From NCBI GenBank assembly GCA_902806085.1, contig CADCVH010000031.1, positions 79,950-112,134 on the forward strand: DNA of 32,185 bases, written 5' to 3'. Origin of the DNA: an uncultured Rubrobacteraceae bacterium (GTDB lineage Bacteria > Actinomycetota > Rubrobacteria > Rubrobacterales > Rubrobacteraceae). A program made the translations under genes and the position numbers. Positions within the stretch are counted from its first letter, which is position 1. Every line of letters starts with the position of its first letter. Below, piece by piece: positions 2,211-10,031 of this stretch. The notes beneath the pieces were generated by a model. The model was not told the origin of the DNA and searched no databases. It saw nothing but the letters and a program-made list of their open reading frames with translations.

Positions 2211-3311
2211 TCATCCGTTCCCTTCGGCCGGCCCGGATCGCAGGGCGTCGGCCACCCGGAAGGGGTCCGAGGCTACGACCGAAGCGGCGTAGAGCTCCAT
2301 CGCCCCGATGTCCGAGGTGCGGTTGGCCGGGTCCCCGCGGTCGACGACGTGGACGACGGTCGGGAAGCCCGACCAGTCCTCGTCGGCGGGCGCGAGCGGC
2401 GGCATGTAGAACGCGACGTTGAAGGCGCGGACGCCGAGGAGCCGGACGTAGTCCCGAAGCAGGGCCCCGACGGTTCGGTGCAGGGCCGCGTCCCCCGGGT
2501 CGGCGCCGATCACGACGAGCTCCTTCTCCTTTACCGGGGTGAGGCTTGCAAACGCCCGGACGCCGGCCTCGGCCGGGAGACCGAGGCCTAGAGCGCTGTG
2601 GACCCTGTGGAGGTCCCCGAAGTAGTCCGAGCCGTGTTCGGAGCGGTAGCCGGCGGCGGCGCGGCGGAGGCGTTCGACCTTCGGGTAGTGGGAGCCGCGG
2701 GTGGCGGTAACCTGGGCGTGGCCGTGGATGATGGAGCCCCCTGCCCGCCAGAGGCAGTTCCACATCAAGAACGGGTACTTCGCCTCCGGGTCCGCTTCGA
2801 GCGCTTTACGGGACCACTCCAGGCCTACGGAGACGTAGTCCGAGACCTTCCCGGGGGTGAGGTGGAGGGGGTTGTGGTCGTCGAAGACGACGACGCCGTG
2901 GAAGCCGTCGTACTTGGCGATGTTGGAGGCGGTGGTGGCGTGCTCGCCCCTCACGCGGCCGAAGACGTCGGCGGGGGTCCCCTCCTCGGGCCGGCAGAAC
3001 GGGTCGCCCTCGGTGGCCGCTATCTCCCGGTCGAGGTCGAGGCTGACGCCGGTGTCTAAAGGCCGGGAGGCGCGCAGCCCGTTGAAGAGGGTGCCTGCCA
3101 GGGTGACGCGGTTCGTGACCTTGACGATGCGTTGCTCCGTCACGGCGTCCACGGAGCCGAAAGACTTCTCGATCCAGGGCTTCATGCCCTCCGGCGGGTC
3201 GAGCCGGCCGGTCGTGGCGGAGGCGTCGAGGAGGCGTTCTGCGAGGGCGCGGTCCCCGGGCGGGAGGCCTTCGATCAGGGCCGGCAGGTCTGTGATACTG
3301 GGCTCCGTCAT
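2211..3311 (-). CDS. GalT/HIT-superfamily nucleotidyltransferase-like protein
   Basis: This 366-aa protein resembles galactose-1-phosphate uridylyltransferase. The nucleophile region reads GGSIIHGHAQVT, that is His-x-His-x-Gln, the HIT-superfamily active site in which the second His is transiently nucleotidylated. Upstream are GalT-like segments DPFCRPEEGTP and ASNIAKYDGFHGVVVF, and near the C-terminus RTSDIGAMELYAASVV. The usual paired zinc-binding CxxC of classical GalT is not seen; only a single Cys occurs in DPFC. The ATG at 3311 has AGGAGA just upstream. It is the last gene of the minus-strand run that includes the SPS-like genes, so a sugar-1-phosphate/UDP-sugar exchange role is plausible. 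The true substrate is unknown, and an ADP-sugar or ADP phosphorylase role is an alternative. Confidence 0.7.
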   Translation of the reverse strand: MTEPSITDLPALIEGLPPGDRALAERLLDASATTGRLDPPEGMKPWIEKSFGSVDAVTEQRIVKVTNRVTLAGTLFNGLRASRPLDTGVSLDLDREIAATEGDPFCRPEEGTPADVFGRVRGEHATTASNIAKYDGFHGVVVFDDHNPLHLTPGKVSDYVSVGLEWSRKALEADPEAKYPFLMWNCLWRAGGSIIHGHAQVTATRGSHYPKVERLRRAAAGYRSEHGSDYFGDLHRVHSALGLGLPAEAGVRAFASLTPVKEKELVVIGADPGDAALHRTVGALLRDYVRLLGVRAFNVAFYMPPLAPADEDWSGFPTVVHVVDRGDPANRTSDIGAMELYAASVVASDPFRVADALRSGPAEGNG

Positions 3312-3347: not shown

Positions 3348-4040
3348 TTATGCAGGCCCGGCGCTGCCGCCGTGCGCCCGGAGTCCGGCCGAGGCGCTTC
3401 CCGCCTCGTGGTCCGCCGCCCGCATCCACAGAACCGCGCCGAGCAGGATCCAGCCCGACCCTTGCAGCGCCACCAGCGCCAGGAACGCCGCCCACCCCCA
3501 CCCCGCTGGGCCGAACAACGTCTGCAGCAAGAACGAGAGCAGCGTCATGGCGCACAGGACGACGGGTAGGATGCTCCACGCTCTCAGGGCTCGCGCCCGG
3601 ACGACGGCCGCGCCCAGAAGCAGCAGGCCGCCCGCGAGAAAGGCGTCCTCTACCCTGTCGAACGTTACCTCGGGAAAGATAAGGTTCGGCGGCGGGCCGG
3701 TCTGATCCGGCGAGAGGAACGCCTTGTAGGCGACGTACGCTATGGAGAAGACGACGTAGGAGGCCGAAGCTACCGCGGACGCGCCGGCGAGCAACGGGCC
3801 GAAGAGCCCGAGGCCCGAGCGTCGGCCGAGCAGGGCGTAGAGGCCGGCGAGCGCCACGAAGAAGAGAACCGCCACGAGCACCCCGAAGAGGTCCAGCGCG
3901 AAGCCGATAATGGCGCGGGCGGCCCAGTTCGAGGCCGGCAACGCGAAAAGGAGGAGGTAGATCGCGTTTATCACCCCGAACACCGCGCCGCCGAACGCGG
4001 CGGCTACCCCACCAAGCCGAACCCAGTTCGCTAGGGACAA
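3348..4040 (-). CDS. Uncharacterised integral membrane protein
   Basis: A 230-aa hydrophobic protein with about six predicted membrane segments: for example VAAAFGGAVFGVINAIYLLL near the N-terminus, then a helix containing FGVLVAVLFFVALAGLYALL, and a pair near the C-terminus. A short polar loop with SPDQTGPPPN lies mid-protein. I chose the TTG at 4040 because GAAGGAGAG sits about nine bases upstream; an in-frame upstream ATG would add a basic leader that overlaps the neighbouring small ORF and has no ribosome site. I do not recognise the family. It lies 36 bases upstream of the GalT-like gene and could be co-transcribed with it. Confidence 0.65.
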   Translation of the reverse strand: MSLANWVRLGGVAAAFGGAVFGVINAIYLLLFALPASNWAARAIIGFALDLFGVLVAVLFFVALAGLYALLGRRSGLGLFGPLLAGASAVASASYVVFSIAYVAYKAFLSPDQTGPPPNLIFPEVTFDRVEDAFLAGGLLLLGAAVVRARALRAWSILPVVLCAMTLLSFLLQTLFGPAGWGWAAFLALVALQGSGWILLGAVLWMRAADHEAGSASAGLRAHGGSAGPA

Positions 4041-4086
4041 GAATTCTCTCCTTCGGGTCGGGGTTCGAAGTCTCCGCCCGGACCGG

Positions 4087-4356
4087 TTACGGCCGAGGTC
4101 CAAAGCTCGTGACGCCCCCGGTTACCACCAGCGCAAAACCGCGGGCTACGAAGAGGCCGGCCCAGAGGCGCAGGATGTCGGCGAGCGTCGCCTGCTCTTC
4201 GGACAGGAAGTTTGCCAGGGAGCCGAAGAGGGCGCCCATCCCTTCCAGGACGCCGAAAGGCAGAGAGGCTGCGACGTTCCCTCCGGGGTCTCCGGTTACG
4301 GAGGCGAGGCCGGAAGGGATCATGCCGAACGAGCTCACCAATTCCACCAATTCCAC
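4087..4356 (-). CDS. Small hypothetical protein, 89 aa or shorter
   Basis: An open frame of up to 89 codons ends 46 bases before the TTG start of the membrane protein. It encodes a mildly hydrophobic protein with one possible membrane stretch (LWAGLFVARGFALVVTGGV). The N-terminus is uncertain. Several GTG and TTG codons occur in a repetitive stretch (4337-4380), and an internal ATG (FGMIPSG) is also possible. A GGAGG precedes the repeated TTG/GTG codons at a usable distance. I know no homologue, and its reality rests on position and codon use only. Confidence 0.4.
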   Translation of the reverse strand: MELVELVSSFGMIPSGLASVTGDPGGNVAASLPFGVLEGMGALFGSLANFLSEEQATLADILRLWAGLFVARGFALVVTGGVTSFGPRP

Positions 4357-4458: not shown

Positions 4459-6927
4459 CTACGCCCTCTGGCCGGCGCCCCGTTCGAGCCGCCGGTAGAT
4501 GGCCCCGCGGTCGATCATGCGCTCCACGTGGCCTTCTACGCCGAGCTTGAGCGCGGCTACCTCGTGGGCGAAGCGCACGCTCGTCGGCCAGTCCTTGCCG
4601 TCCAGGTGCGCGACGAGCAGCGCCGACCAGAACGCGTCGCGGGCGCCGGTCACGCTCTGCACGTCCACCTTTGGCAGGGGGCCAACACGCTCCACGGAGG
4701 AGCCGTCCGAGACGTCGACCACGCCGCCGCTTCGGGTCATCACGACCACCTCGGCCCCGAGGTCGTGGAAGGCGTCGAGGCAGGCCTCCTCGAGCGCGTC
4801 GTCGTCCATGTTCGGGTCGAAGAGGCGGCGGGCGTCTTCGAGGGACGGCTTGACGACGGTGACGTAGGGGAGGACCTCGGCGAGCACCTCCCAGGCCTCC
4901 TCCCGGTCGGGCCAGACGCGCGGGTCGTAGTTCGGGTCCAGGGAGACGACCTTGCCGAGCCTCGCGCCGAGCCGCATCGCCCGCCTCACGGCGAGCCGCT
5001 GCGGGTCTCGGGAGAGGGCGAAGGCCGAGGTGTGAACGGCCCGCGCCCGCTCGACGAGCTCGTCCGGGACCTCCCTTATGTTCAGCAGCGCGTCGGCGCC
5101 CCGGTTGACCTGGAAGTCCGGTACGTTGACGGTCCTGGTGACGAAGGCGCTCGTGGTCGGCTCCCCCGCCGCGCGGTGGACGCCCTCCGTGGAGACGCCG
5201 TGGCGCCCCAGTTGGTCCTCCACGAACTCGCCGAAGTAGTCGGTGCCGACCTTCGTGACCACGGCGGACCGGCCGCCGAGCTTGGCGACGTAGACGGCGA
5301 CGTTGGCCGGCTGGCCGCCCAGGTAGCGCGAGAACCTGTCGGCGGTCCTGAGCGAGATCCTGAACTCGTGCGAGATGAAATCCACGAGCGATTCCCCCAC
5401 CGCGAGCACGTCGAGCCCGAAGTACAGGCCGTCCAGCGTCTCGAGCGAGGCCCCCTCTTCGGAGGCGGGGTCGGTGAAGTACGCCGGGATCTCCAACCGC
5501 GTCTCCGGCGCCCGGATGCCGTCGGCCGAACCCCCGTCTTCGACCCTCCCCCCGCCCGCCATGGCGCCCAGGTACCCCTCCGCCGTGCGCTCCCAGGTGT
5601 ACTTCGCCAGCACGCGCCCGTAGCCGGCCTCGGCGAAGCGGCGCCAGCGCTCTGCGTTGCCCACGACGGAGTACAGGCCTGCGGCCACCTCCTCCGGGTC
5701 GCCCGGGTCCACGAGGACGCCGTACTCCTCGTCCCCCTCGCGCAGGGACTCGCTCGGCCCCCCGTTCTTCGTGACGACCGCCGGCAGGCCCGCCGCCATC
5801 GCCTCCAGAGGCGCGAGCCCGAACGGCTCGTAGTTGGCCGTGAGCGCGAAGACCGAGCGCCGTTCGGAGAGGAAGCGGTAGGCGGCGGCCAGGCGCCGCT
5901 GCCCCCGGACCGCGAACATCGAGACCATGCCGCGCATCCGGGCCCGGTCTATCGTCCCCATGATGCCGTCGAGCACGGCCCGCTCCCCCTCGTCTGCGTC
6001 CCTGTAGTCTTCGAGCGGGTTCTCCATGTTGCCCGTGAGGATGACCAGGTTCGCGCCCCCGCGCAGGGTCGGGCTGCTGGCGAAGGCCTCGACGAGCGAG
6101 AGGTGGTTCTTCTTCGGGTCGAGCCGGCTGGAGGCGACGACGCAGGGCAGGCCCAGCCGGTCGGGGGCGAGGTCGCGCTCCAGGCAGGCGCGGACGTGCT
6201 CGCGCACGGCGCTCTCGTCGTCGGTGCGGGAGTTTTTGTCGAAGATGTGCATTGCCACGCCGGGGGGCACGGCGGCGAAGCGGGCGCCGTCCGTGGGGTC
6301 CACGGCCCCGCGGTACGCGTTGTGGGTGTACTGTACGAACCGCTCCTGGCCCGTGCTCGTGACGTTGACCCGCGAGCGGTTCATCGCCAGCCTCTCGGCC
6401 ACGATGCGCTTGGAGAAGTGGTACTTCTCGTCCGTCCGCGCGACGTCGCGGCGGCGCACGCCCATCTTGTCCATCTTCTGGGCGCCCAAAGAGTGGGCCG
6501 TGAAGCTGAACGGTACGCCGGTCCTCTCCTCCACGAGCGCGGCGCACAACCCCCCATCCCCGTAGTGGGAGGTGACGGCGTCGGGCAGGGAGCCCTCGCG
6601 CTCGTAGAGCGAGATCAGGTTCGGGACGAACTCCGTGCCAAGGTACGGCCAGAGCTCTTCTTTGGGCAAAAAGCGGTCGGGGCCGCAGGGGATACGGAGG
6701 ATGCGCACGTTCGGGGCGTCCGGGTAGGCGTCGGCCGTGGCCCCGAACTCGGGCCAGCCCGGGTCGATGACCTGCCGCGTCACGATGTCCACCCTGTGGC
6801 CGAGGTTGCCCATCGCGAGCGCGAGCTCCTTGACGTAGACGAGCTGGCCGCCGAAGTCCGGGTGGGCTGTCCAGTAGGAGTCTTCGGGATCGAAGTTGCC
6901 CTGCGGGTTGATAAACGCTACGTGCAT
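4459..6927 (-). CDS. Bifunctional-looking fusion: sucrose-phosphate-synthase-like GT4 glycosyltransferase + PfkB-family sugar kinase
   Basis: The 822-aa protein has two domains. Residues 1 to about 490 are an SPS-like GT-B enzyme (UDP-glucose + fructose-6-P to sucrose-6-P). They begin HVAFINPQGNFDPEDSYW, contain HPDFGGQLVYVKE, FLPKEELWPYL and HYGDGGLC, and have the retaining-GT pair E367/E375 in EPFGLAPLE. The tail IPAYFTDP (480-487) matches the natural C-terminus of stand-alone SPS enzymes such as that of Halothermothrix orenii (from memory). Residues about 504-815 are PfkB: LAVGESLVDF, RYLGGQPANVAVYVAKLGG, SLDPNYDPRVWP, VVKPSLEDA. The anion-hole motif reads TGARDAF (R763, D764) where TGAGDAF is expected. 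The catalytic Asp is kept but the invariant Gly is Arg (codon at 4639-4641). The ATG at 6927 follows AGAGG. The gene lies 19 bases after a paralogous GT gene. Confidence 0.88.
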   Translation of the reverse strand: MHVAFINPQGNFDPEDSYWTAHPDFGGQLVYVKELALAMGNLGHRVDIVTRQVIDPGWPEFGATADAYPDAPNVRILRIPCGPDRFLPKEELWPYLGTEFVPNLISLYEREGSLPDAVTSHYGDGGLCAALVEERTGVPFSFTAHSLGAQKMDKMGVRRRDVARTDEKYHFSKRIVAERLAMNRSRVNVTSTGQERFVQYTHNAYRGAVDPTDGARFAAVPPGVAMHIFDKNSRTDDESAVREHVRACLERDLAPDRLGLPCVVASSRLDPKKNHLSLVEAFASSPTLRGGANLVILTGNMENPLEDYRDADEGERAVLDGIMGTIDRARMRGMVSMFAVRGQRRLAAAYRFLSERRSVFALTANYEPFGLAPLEAMAAGLPAVVTKNGGPSESLREGDEEYGVLVDPGDPEEVAAGLYSVVGNAERWRRFAEAGYGRVLAKYTWERTAEGYLGAMAGGGRVEDGGSADGIRAPETRLEIPAYFTDPASEEGASLETLDGLYFGLDVLAVGESLVDFISHEFRISLRTADRFSRYLGGQPANVAVYVAKLGGRSAVVTKVGTDYFGEFVEDQLGRHGVSTEGVHRAAGEPTTSAFVTRTVNVPDFQVNRGADALLNIREVPDELVERARAVHTSAFALSRDPQRLAVRRAMRLGARLGKVVSLDPNYDPRVWPDREEAWEVLAEVLPYVTVVKPSLEDARRLFDPNMDDDALEEACLDAFHDLGAEVVVMTRSGGVVDVSDGSSVERVGPLPKVDVQSVTGARDAFWSALLVAHLDGKDWPTSVRFAHEVAALKLGVEGHVERMIDRGAIYRRLERGAGQRA

Positions 6928-6946
6928 CCGCCCATCCTCTCTGTCG

Positions 6947-8437
6947 TTACCCGGTCCGGGGCCCTGGCCGGGCCTCCCAGTCCCGCAGGCGCGGGAGCTC
7001 CGCCGGGGCGGGCCGCCGGGCGAAGTCTGGGATGGGGAAGGAGGGGTCCCCGCCTCGTTCTCCCCTCCGGGCCTCCTCCGCCAGTTGCAGGTAGCCCTCG
7101 GCGGTGCGGCGCCAGTTGTACAGGTCGTGGGACCTTTCGAGGGCCCTGTCGGCGTAGGACTTCCAGGTCTCCCGGTCCGAGAGGAGGCGCAGCAGCTTGG
7201 CGGCTATGTCTTCCGGGTCGTGGGGGTCCACGAGGAGGCCGACCCGGCCGCCGTCGGTGGTCTCCTGCGGGCCGCCGTTCTGCGTGGCGACCACGGGGAG
7301 GCCGACGGCCATCGCCTCGACCACCGTCATGCCGAAGGGCTCGTGCTCGGCGGGGAGGCAGAAGACGCCGCCCGTCTCCGCACCCCAGCGGTAGAGGGCC
7401 GCAAGGGCCGTTTGCCCCGAGAGGCCGAAGGCTGAGATGCCGCCCCACAGGTCCGCGCGGTCTACGGTCGAGATCAGGTCTTCCAGGATGGGCCGCTCCT
7501 CGTCGGCGGCTTCGCCCGGCTCGCGCAGCGGGTCGTCGAGGCCGCGCGTGATGACGAGCAGGTTGGCCCTCTCCCTGAGCTCGCCGCTCCCGGCGAAGGC
7601 CTCGACGAGCGCCCGGTGGTTCTTCTTCGGGTCGAGCCGGCTCCAGGCGATGACGGCCGGCAGGTCCCGCCGGTCGGGGTCGATGTCCCGCTCGTGGGCG
7701 GCCCGGATGTTTTCGCGCGTCTCGTCTTCTTGCGGTCCTCGCGCCCCGGGGTCGAAGATGTCGAAGTCGACGCCTGGCGGTATCACGGCGAAGCGCGCGT
7801 CGTCCCGGACCTCCACCGCGCCGCGGTAGGCCGGGTGGTCGTACTGCTCCCGGCGCTCGGCCTCGCTGTTGGAGACGATGGCCGCCGAGCGGGCCATCGC
7901 CGCGCGCTCGGCCCCGATCCTCGCCCCGAAGTTGTACCGGGCGTCCGCCGCCGGCAGGCCGCCCTCGTCCTCCATGAGCGGGTCCAGCTTCCACGCGCCG
8001 AGCGAGTGGCCGGTGAAGGTGAACGGCCTGCCCGAAGGCCCCTCCAGCAGCGCCGCGCAGAGGCCGCCATCGGCGTAGTGCCCGGTCCAGAGGTCGGGCC
8101 AGCGGCCCTCCTCCCGGTAGAGCGCGGCCACGCCCTCCGCCCATTCGCCCAGGTAGGGCCAGAGCTCCTCTTTGGGCAGGAAGCGGTCCGGACCGCACGG
8201 CACGCGCAGGATCCGGACGTTCTCGTCGCCCGGGTACGCGTCGTCCTCACCGGAGAACTCGGGCCATTCGGGGTCGGTTACGCGGCGGGTGAGGATGTCC
8301 GCGTGGTGGCCCATCCTGCCGAGCGCGCGGGCCACCTCGCGCACGTAGACGAGCTGGCCGCCGAAGTCGGGGTGGGAGGCCAGGTAGCTGTTGTTCGGGT
8401 CGAAGTTCCCCTGCGGGTTCACGAAGGCGACGCGCAT
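6947..8437 (-). CDS. Sucrose-phosphate-synthase-like GT4 glycosyltransferase
   Basis: A 496-aa GT-B glycosyltransferase, paralogous to the first domain of the following fusion protein. It shares VAFVNPQGNFDPNNSY, HPDFGGQLVYVREVA, PCGPDRFLPKEELWPYL, HYADGGLCAALLE, SRLDPKKNHRALVEAF, and the acidic pair E366/E374 in HEPFGMTVVEAM. It is expected to transfer glucose from a nucleotide sugar to a sugar phosphate. It has its own short tail without a kinase domain and lacks the exact IPAYFTDP end, reading FPIPDFARRPAP instead. Its ATG is 10 bases after the pfkB stop with no close ribosome site, which suggests coupling. Sucrose-6-P synthesis is the family expectation; two diverged copies side by side suggest either different acceptors or hetero-oligomers. 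Mannosylfructose-phosphate synthase is a related alternative. Confidence 0.82.
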   Translation of the reverse strand: MRVAFVNPQGNFDPNNSYLASHPDFGGQLVYVREVARALGRMGHHADILTRRVTDPEWPEFSGEDDAYPGDENVRILRVPCGPDRFLPKEELWPYLGEWAEGVAALYREEGRWPDLWTGHYADGGLCAALLEGPSGRPFTFTGHSLGAWKLDPLMEDEGGLPAADARYNFGARIGAERAAMARSAAIVSNSEAERREQYDHPAYRGAVEVRDDARFAVIPPGVDFDIFDPGARGPQEDETRENIRAAHERDIDPDRRDLPAVIAWSRLDPKKNHRALVEAFAGSGELRERANLLVITRGLDDPLREPGEAADEERPILEDLISTVDRADLWGGISAFGLSGQTALAALYRWGAETGGVFCLPAEHEPFGMTVVEAMAVGLPVVATQNGGPQETTDGGRVGLLVDPHDPEDIAAKLLRLLSDRETWKSYADRALERSHDLYNWRRTAEGYLQLAEEARRGERGGDPSFPIPDFARRPAPAELPRLRDWEARPGPRTG

Positions 8438-8447
8438 CTTGTCGTAC

Positions 8448-9443
8448 TCAGCTCCCTTCAGGTTTCTTTTTCTCTTTACCGTTGGCTTCGCCGGCTTCCC
8501 CGTCCAGGCTGGCGTAGATACCCCCGCGGTCGATGTCCGCGGGGAGGGGGCCCTTGGTCGTGAGCTTGCGCTCGACGATCTCGCGGGCGAAGAGGACGGA
8601 GCGTTCGACCTCGTTGCCGTCCAGGAGCGCCGTGAGGAAGCCGGCCCAGAACGAGTCGCCCGCGCCGGTGGCGTCGACGACGTCGACGGGGCGGACGGGG
8701 ACGTGGGCCGTGATCTTGCCGTTCTCGGAGACCAGGTTCCCCTCGACGCCCATCGTGAAGATGACGGTCTCGGGGCCGAGGTCGTGGAACATCTCTATGT
8801 ACTGCTCGGGCTCGTAATCCGGGCCGAAGACCCGGCGGGCGTCGTCCGCGGAGGGCTTGGTCATGTTGACGTGCTTGTAGGCCTCCCGGATCACGCCGAG
8901 CGCCTCCTTGTAGTCCGGCCACACGCGCCGGCTGTAGTTGGGGTCGAGCGAGACGATCTTGCCCATCTCCCGCGCCCTGCGGAAGGCCCCGATGACGGCC
9001 GAGCGGCACGGCTCGCGCGAGAGGGCGAAGGTCGAGGAGTGGACGACCTTCGCGCGCTCTATGGCCTCGTCGGGGATCTCCTTGGTCTCCAGCAGGTAGT
9101 CGCCGATGCGGAACTCCTCGAAGTCCGGGGTGGTCGCGGTCGAGGAGACGAAGATCACGGTCGTGTTCGTCCGGTGGTCCATCTGCAAGTATTCGGTGAC
9201 GACCCCGTGGCGCTGCAGCTCGCTCTTCAAAAACTTCCCAAACGCCCCGATGCCGGTCTTGGCGATCACCGCCGACCTCCCCCCGAGCTTGGAGACGTAC
9301 ACCGCTATGTTGGCCGGCGAACCGCCCAAATAGCGCTTGAACGTGGTCGCGTTGCTTAAAGTGTCGGTCTTCTCGGCGGAGATAAAGTCCACCACCATCT
9401 CGCCGACGGTGAGGACGTCCAGGTGCTGCCCGGGGGAAACCAT
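8448..9443 (-). CDS. PfkB-family carbohydrate kinase (fructokinase-like)
   Basis: This 331-aa ribokinase-family enzyme transfers ATP phosphate to a sugar. It shows both PfkB signatures: the N-terminal KRYLGGSPANIAVYVSKLGG and the C-terminal DATGAGDSFWAGFL with intact GAGD. SLDPNYSRRVWPD and MTKPSADDARR match the kinase half of the adjacent fusion protein, so the two kinases are paralogues. In other bacteria SPS genes are often linked with a fructokinase that supplies fructose-6-P, which is the likely role here. The C-terminus is a charged, Lys-rich tail ending KKKPEGS. The ATG at 9443 has no obvious ribosome site. A TAGAGT hexamer 12 bases upstream would allow a nearly leaderless transcript, but its -35 is poor. 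Confidence 0.82.
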   Translation of the reverse strand: MVSPGQHLDVLTVGEMVVDFISAEKTDTLSNATTFKRYLGGSPANIAVYVSKLGGRSAVIAKTGIGAFGKFLKSELQRHGVVTEYLQMDHRTNTTVIFVSSTATTPDFEEFRIGDYLLETKEIPDEAIERAKVVHSSTFALSREPCRSAVIGAFRRAREMGKIVSLDPNYSRRVWPDYKEALGVIREAYKHVNMTKPSADDARRVFGPDYEPEQYIEMFHDLGPETVIFTMGVEGNLVSENGKITAHVPVRPVDVVDATGAGDSFWAGFLTALLDGNEVERSVLFAREIVERKLTTKGPLPADIDRGGIYASLDGEAGEANGKEKKKPEGS

Positions 9444-9516: not shown

Positions 9517-9987
9517 TCAGGCCCGGCAGCCGCCGCCTTCGCCCCGCAGGCCCTCGCGAAGGAGCCCCAGCAGCCGGACGAGCTCGCGGCGGTCTTCCTC
9601 CGTGAGCCCGGCGAAGAGCTCCGCCACAGCCCCCCGGTGCTCGTCGTAGAGGGTGTCCATCGTCCGACCGCCCTCTTCGGTCAGCTCTACGACGGTCGCC
9701 CGCCTGTCCGTGGGGTGGGGGAGGCGCCTGACGAGGCCCTCCTCCTCGAGGGCGTCCACCAGGGCCGTGACGTTGCGCCGCGTGACCCCGAGCTCGTCGC
9801 TTATGCCGCTCATGATCTTGGGCCCCCCGCAATGCAACGCCCCGAGCAACCGCATCCGCGCGTAGCTTACGCCCGACTCCTGCATCCGCGAGCGTGCCCA
9901 CTTCATGTACGCCGGCCCGAAAGCGGCGAACTCGTCCACCAGCCGCAGCGAGAGATCCCCCACAGCCCCCGGACTCACCTTGCCCAC
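9517..9987 (-). CDS. MarR-family transcriptional regulator
   Basis: A 156-aa winged-helix repressor-type protein. The DNA-binding core reads ISDELGVTRRNVTALVDALE, followed by the wing GLVRRLPHPTDRRATVVELTEEG, and the flanking helices typical of MarR dimerisation are present. The GTG at 9987 (GTG GGC AAG) is the most upstream start; a second GTG four codons in cannot be excluded. It sits divergently from the SDR/ABC exporter operon and 73 bases upstream of the pfkB-SPS operon in the same direction, so it may control either or both. Its own promoter is visible in the divergent region. The ligand is unknown. Confidence 0.85.
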   Translation of the reverse strand: MGKVSPGAVGDLSLRLVDEFAAFGPAYMKWARSRMQESGVSYARMRLLGALHCGGPKIMSGISDELGVTRRNVTALVDALEEEGLVRRLPHPTDRRATVVELTEEGGRTMDTLYDEHRGAVAELFAGLTEEDRRELVRLLGLLREGLRGEGGGCRA

Positions 9988-10031
9988 TTTTCACCCCACA
10001 CGAAGCCCATGCTACCAACTCCCTTTGCCGC

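Follow-up and report, generated by a model that had tools for sequence, protein, structure and literature searches.

A sucrose-phosphate-synthase-type glycosyltransferase fused to a degenerate PfkB domain in Rubrobacteraceae

The fusion gene and its operon

The window, a stretch of 32,185 nucleotides from an uncultured Rubrobacteraceae bacterium, carries on its minus strand a gene for a MarR-family regulator, followed in order by a free PfkB fructokinase (P0004), a free GT4 enzyme resembling sucrose-phosphate synthase (SPS; P0003), a protein joining an SPS-type GT4 domain to a PfkB domain (P0002) and a conserved protein of 366 amino acids (Table 1). From their coordinates, the gaps between P0004, P0003 and P0002 are 10 and 19 nt. 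P0002 is a single unbroken open reading frame of 822 amino acids, as an earlier note on this DNA had described without giving the strand. A plus-strand open reading frame that overlaps the gene (4528-7551) has no family match in Pfam or NCBIfam.

Table 1. Features of the locus, followed by GalT-like genes that lie beside SPS genes at other loci
Feature	Position	Strand
MarR-family regulator, upstream of the operon, conserved in relatives	9520-9990	minus
P0004, free PfkB fructokinase, first structural gene of the operon	8448-9443	minus
P0003, free SPS-like GT4 paralogue, optional in relatives	6947-8437	minus
P0002, SPS-type GT4/putative pseudo-PfkB fusion protein, 822 aa	4459-6927	minus
SPS-type GT4 domain of P0002, residues 1-460	5548-6927	minus
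PfkB domain of P0002, residues 504-815, degenerate ATP site	4483-5418	minus
ATP loop, residues 731-736: TRSGGV instead of TxGxxG	4720-4737	minus
Cation site, anion hole and catalytic base, residues 758-764: SVTGARD instead of D[AVT]TGAGD	4636-4656	minus
Conserved downstream gene, 366 aa, tentative GalT/HIT-like motif	2211-3311	minus
GalT-like gene, locus L095	10408-11442	
GalT-like gene, locus L106	3840-4841	
GalT-like gene, locus L060	6635-7834	
GalT-like gene, locus L069	1348-2601	
GalT-like gene, locus L079	6647-7945	

The best match of P0002 residues 1-458 is the SPS of Halothermothrix orenii (2r60; phmmer E 1.7e-157), while residues from about 504 to 815 form a PfkB domain (Pfam PF00294, E 3e-49) whose best sequence match is H. 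orenii fructokinase (3hj6; E 1.2e-50). Both halves are modelled confidently by AlphaFold (mean pLDDT 87, pTM 0.85), with disorder predicted at residues 459-474. The IPAYFTDP tail, correctly recognized earlier as native to the SPS domain, begins at residue 480, and since the tail of H. orenii SPS aligns in register nearly up to the start of the kinase, P0002 looks like a complete SPS followed by a complete kinase. No internal stop interrupts the junction among the copies of 15 of the 36 family genomes, one of them a two-contig genome. An assembly or frameshift artefact is ruled out by these copies and by those in separate Chloroflexota metagenome-assembled genomes (MAGs).

The free kinase P0004 has intact motifs (TMGVEG and DATGAGD) and matches H. 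orenii fructokinase better (E 9e-76) than the fused domain does. A free intact kinase adjoins the fusion in all 14 Rubrobacteraceae and Chloroflexia loci. Two Anaerolineales genomes with the fusion encode a free GAGD kinase elsewhere in the genome, and no free kinase is adjacent at L056, the sole Anaerolineales locus flanked on both sides. P0003 is 53% identical to the fused SPS domain; its catalytic residues are conserved, but it has diverged in the acceptor-side loops (HYADGG, GAWKLD), where the fused SPS retains the H. orenii pattern, and may possibly use a different acceptor or donor. Its counterpart is absent beside the fusion in L047, L048, L050 and L053, and thus the kinase and the fusion constitute the core pair.

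Relatives of the 366-amino-acid gene, 72-90% identical, occur in all nine Rubrobacteraceae fusion loci with enough flanking sequence. The protein has no match in Pfam or NCBIfam; its GGSIIHGHAQ motif resembles the HxHxQ of GalT/HIT nucleotidyl transferases, and in a profile comparison it weakly matches GalT-like genes (hhalign E 6e-5, prob 64). Such genes adjoin SPS at Bacillota and Chloroflexota loci without this fusion, the similarity in Chloroflexota being weak. Together these hint at a recurring module of fructokinase, SPS and a GalT-like protein. Between the fusion and the 366-amino-acid gene lies an open reading frame resembling a membrane protein (window 3351-4121, minus strand) that lacks a family match and has a weak counterpart at the same place in one relative locus only (L044).

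The two halves of the protein

The P0002 model shows the GT-B fold of SPS in its first half (against 2r60: Z 43.0, rmsd 4.2, 448 aligned, 51% identity). The E-X7-E motif is kept as E367 and E375, and the equivalents of G33, Q35, K96, Y128, H151, S152, K157, R180, E184, R270 and K275 are identical in P0002 and H. orenii SPS. These eleven were chosen from the H. orenii SPS structure as residues of the fructose-6-phosphate (F6P) and NDP-glucose sites. The SPS half scores 276 bits against NCBIfam TIGR02472, for which the curated cut-off is 576. The missed cut-off was dropped as an argument against SPS after a control with H. orenii SPS, which has been solved structurally and also falls below it at 322 bits; thus the cut-off is not decisive for this SPS subfamily. 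Judged by its residues, the SPS half would be catalytically competent. Candidates for a sucrose-6-phosphate phosphatase partner are limited to weak PF05116 matches in the host and related genomes, with none in the operon.

The PfkB fold is predicted to be intact in P0002 (Z 32-37 against solved PfkB kinases). Residues of the kinase half were compared between 17 fused and 53 free SPS-linked kinases. The ATP loop TxGxxG, which reads TRSGGV in P0002, lacks both glycines in all 17 fused proteins (S733 and a residue other than glycine at 736), while both are present in all 53 free kinases. Position 758 is serine or asparagine in 17 of 17 fused proteins and aspartate in every free one. The earlier note had drawn attention to the GARD sequence in place of GAGD, which is indeed found at residues 761-764 (R763 codon CGC, window 4641-4639), and to the loss there of an invariant anion-hole glycine. 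That glycine is present in 53 of 53 free kinases and changed in 16 of the 17 fused proteins, but arginine is not its universal replacement (R in 14, S in 2, and G in one, L055), and the note had missed both the universal TRSGG and the change of D758 to serine or asparagine. The derived fused proteins read GARD, GGRD, GGSD or GGGD. The loss of ordinary kinase activity, which the note had raised as a possibility, appears probable.

On the fructokinase of V. cholerae, the lesions of P0002 map to G236, G239, D260 and G265, of which G236 belongs to the ATP loop and D260 is the cation-loop aspartate of the ribokinase family. G239 contacts the ADP ribose and G265 forms part of the anion hole; N49, D26 and D30 bind the sugar, D172, N174, K201 and E206 the Mg water, and D266 is the base (PMC6240065, PMC2651755). 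The equivalents of N49, D172, N174, K201, E206 and D266 are unchanged in 17 of 17 fused proteins, as are E512 and D516, the counterparts of D26 and D30. P0002 itself keeps E512, D516, N542, D664, N666, K693, D698 and D764 and differs at contact positions 539 and 668. Position 539 touches fructose (A46 in V. cholerae) and is glutamine in 16 of the 17 fused proteins but serine or alanine in most free kinases, so the ligand of the fused domain may differ from fructose. R176 of V. cholerae is not kept in the fused kinases, nor in the free kinases of Chloroflexota and Actinomycetota. A di-glycine motif near the N-terminus of the domain (G537, G538) occurs in all 17 fused proteins. At the putative lid-dimer interface, F565 and F595 are largely common to free kinases, whereas Y564, Q606 and V607 differ.

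Distribution and descent of the fusion

The family was sampled through 36 genomes in the GTDB grouping, whose named relatives are Rubrobacteraceae. The fusion is present in 15 of them, including 9 of 9 in the genus of the host, and three of the 15 copies are cut by contig ends. It was found in none of 24 genomes sampled from other families of the same phylum. GARD is the reading in every family copy long enough to include the motif. A wider scan of 84,980 species genomes recovered fusions in MAGs labelled Chloroflexia or Thermobaculum (GGRD), in Anaerolineales (VIGGSD and VIGGGD) and in Thermoflexales. In most other Chloroflexota matches and in the Bacillota matches, SPS and kinase are separate and adjacent, and these kinases all read TGAGD. 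No relative of the fusion was found on viral contigs. Since the substitution is lineage-wide, the possibility that Arg763 is a sequencing error or an isolated variant, which the earlier note had named as grounds for discarding its reading, is ruled out.

The fused kinases form one clade in the tree (bootstrap/SH-aLRT 100/100) with a long stem and short tips. At its base stands the Thermoflexales fusion, which is split across two contigs (L058 and L121). If a sequencing-adapter tail is ignored, the two contig ends have ten bases in common, and the reading frame runs on across them. The end of the public contig at which the gene is split (L058 3376-3388) resembles a Nextera adapter (CTGTCTCTTATAC). 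The basal protein already has TRSGG together with an intact DRTGAGD, and thus the ATP loop was altered first and the anion hole later. No other close fructokinase was seen in this genome, which is fragmentary and a single case.

The fused kinase domain is under purifying selection and is not decaying. Median dN/dS over eight pairs, computed on domain columns only, was 0.081 for the fused and 0.082 for the free kinase, against 0.113 for the SPS domain of the fusion. Because its dN/dS equals that of the free kinase, the fused kinase domain has a sequence-dependent function. A useless remnant, the redundant kinase half of an SPS on its way to being lost, could explain the damaged motifs beside an intact kinase, but the range of dN/dS (0.07-0.14), the identity of 72-92% across genera and the restriction of truncations to contig ends contradict it and make it very improbable.

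A fusion of reverse order, fructokinase with intact GAGD and then SPS, occurs in Anaerovirgula multivorans (L095 7959-10418, 820 aa). Its junction reads YNLWGDKTMHV where the kinase of relatives has a stop, so that a recent stop-loss or a sequence error is possible.

Possible functions of the fused kinase domain

A kinase that makes F6P, joined to an enzyme that consumes it, had been proposed in the earlier note to be a channeling enzyme. That simple reading is weakened by the operonic kinase of the 14 Rubrobacteraceae and Chloroflexia loci: an intact free fructokinase is encoded there, so F6P does not have to come from the fused copy. The favored explanation, which is probable though by no means assured, is that P0002 combines an intact SPS with a pseudo-fructokinase serving as a regulatory or docking domain. 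The C-terminal domain is most likely a pseudokinase in which phosphotransfer is lost, having given up its nucleotide side (ATP-ribose loop, cation site and anion hole) while retaining the sugar pocket, the Mg-water ligands and the catalytic aspartate. Fructose would be phosphorylated by P0004, and the fused domain would most likely bind fructose, or F6P by means of R763 in the old gamma-phosphate site. Ligand binding would then control the SPS half, or the domain would dock P0004 as a mixed lid-to-lid dimer, or both. A role for R763 in holding the phosphate of F6P is guessed from where the residue lies, and both the choice of ligand and the choice between allostery and docking as output are likewise guesses. 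In its most specific form, in which the domain is a receptor for F6P (or fructose), the anion hole has become a phosphate-binding arginine site and SPS is set allosterically by its own substrate, the proposal is tentative and rather doubtful; if true, sucrose synthesis would be regulated by an architecture of a new kind, in which the intact free kinase makes the F6P. The catalytic aspartate and Mg ligands, kept in 17 of 17 fused proteins and unneeded by a pure sensor, count against the pseudokinase reading. The fused domain may also dock P0004 by way of the lid dimer, or may keep some residual or unusual kinase activity.

A pure scaffold, in which the pseudokinase takes the place of one subunit in the fructokinase dimer and tethers the free kinase to SPS so that F6P is passed directly, with sugar binding incidental, is unlikely. 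Fructokinases dimerize through the lid (PMC6240065), and the SPP-like domain of plant SPS has been proposed to bind SPP (PMC4493782); the operonic kinase of the 14 Rubrobacteraceae and Chloroflexia loci and the largely shared F565 and F595 are also consistent with such a role. The divergence of Y564, Q606 and V607 and the locus L056 speak against it, and it leaves the conservation of the sugar pocket unexplained. The retention of that pocket and of the metal ligands favors ligand sensing over mere scaffolding. The domain could instead be half of an active but unusual bifunctional enzyme that phosphorylates fructose or another sugar, from a different donor or slowly with ATP, and feeds SPS. This is also unlikely: the conserved aspartate and Mg-water ligands, a dN/dS as low as that of the free kinase and the GAGD of the basal member fit it, but every derived member lacks the ATP-loop glycines and the cation aspartate and usually the anion-hole glycine, and the operon already encodes an intact kinase. 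Less likely again is a GT4 half that, instead of being an SPS, makes another hexosyl-fructose phosphate (from GDP-mannose, for example), in a pathway that the kinase domain would also serve. Donor specificity is unreadable from sequence, neither the operon nor the genome yielded a strong sucrose-6-phosphate phosphatase, and the TIGR02472 score is low; however, that of H. orenii SPS is just 322 bits, and every ligand residue checked is common to the two.

The closest solved relatives by sequence are H. orenii SPS and fructokinase (51% and 31% identity on the P0002 model), and their genes are neighbors in related Halanaerobiales. Unlike the halves of P0002, these are separate proteins and the kinase motifs are intact. 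A close precedent is offered by the bidomain SPS of cyanobacteria and plants, in which a degenerate enzyme of the neighboring pathway step is fused and the active copy is separate (PMC9971976, PMC4493782). In Synechocystis the fused SPP domain of SPS is inactive and SPP is encoded separately (PMC9971976). The fused partner there is the downstream HAD phosphatase, whereas in P0002 it is the upstream PfkB kinase, and P0002 may best be read as the mirror image of the Synechocystis enzyme with its dead SPP domain. Taken together, the two cases suggest that SPS has on two occasions taken on an inactive partner enzyme for control or docking.

Both domains belong to well-known families. Their joint architecture was not found described, in agreement with the earlier note, in a search of the open-access literature, and searches on Rubrobacter SPS and on PfkB pseudokinases returned nothing on point. 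The path of degeneration is unusually clear: the series from a free pair through fused GAGD, GGSD/GGGD and GGRD to GARD traces the successive steps by which the ATP site disappeared. P0002 would be a bacterial case of a metabolic enzyme bearing a conserved pseudo-copy of the preceding enzyme of its pathway. The plant proteins FLN1 and FLN2, another close precedent, have the PfkB fold, lack fructokinase activity and carry an altered G/AXGD motif (GSGD, A/QSGD) (PMC5864856). Unlike P0002, they are part of the plastid RNA polymerase and not fused to SPS, have lost the sugar-binding residues that P0002 keeps, and differ from it in which position of the motif is changed. SPS and fructokinase are co-transcribed in the spsA-sppA-frkA-amsA operon of Synechococcus PCC 7002 (PMC11046441), which differs from the present operon in that the two are unfused and in that it also holds SPP and amylosucrase.
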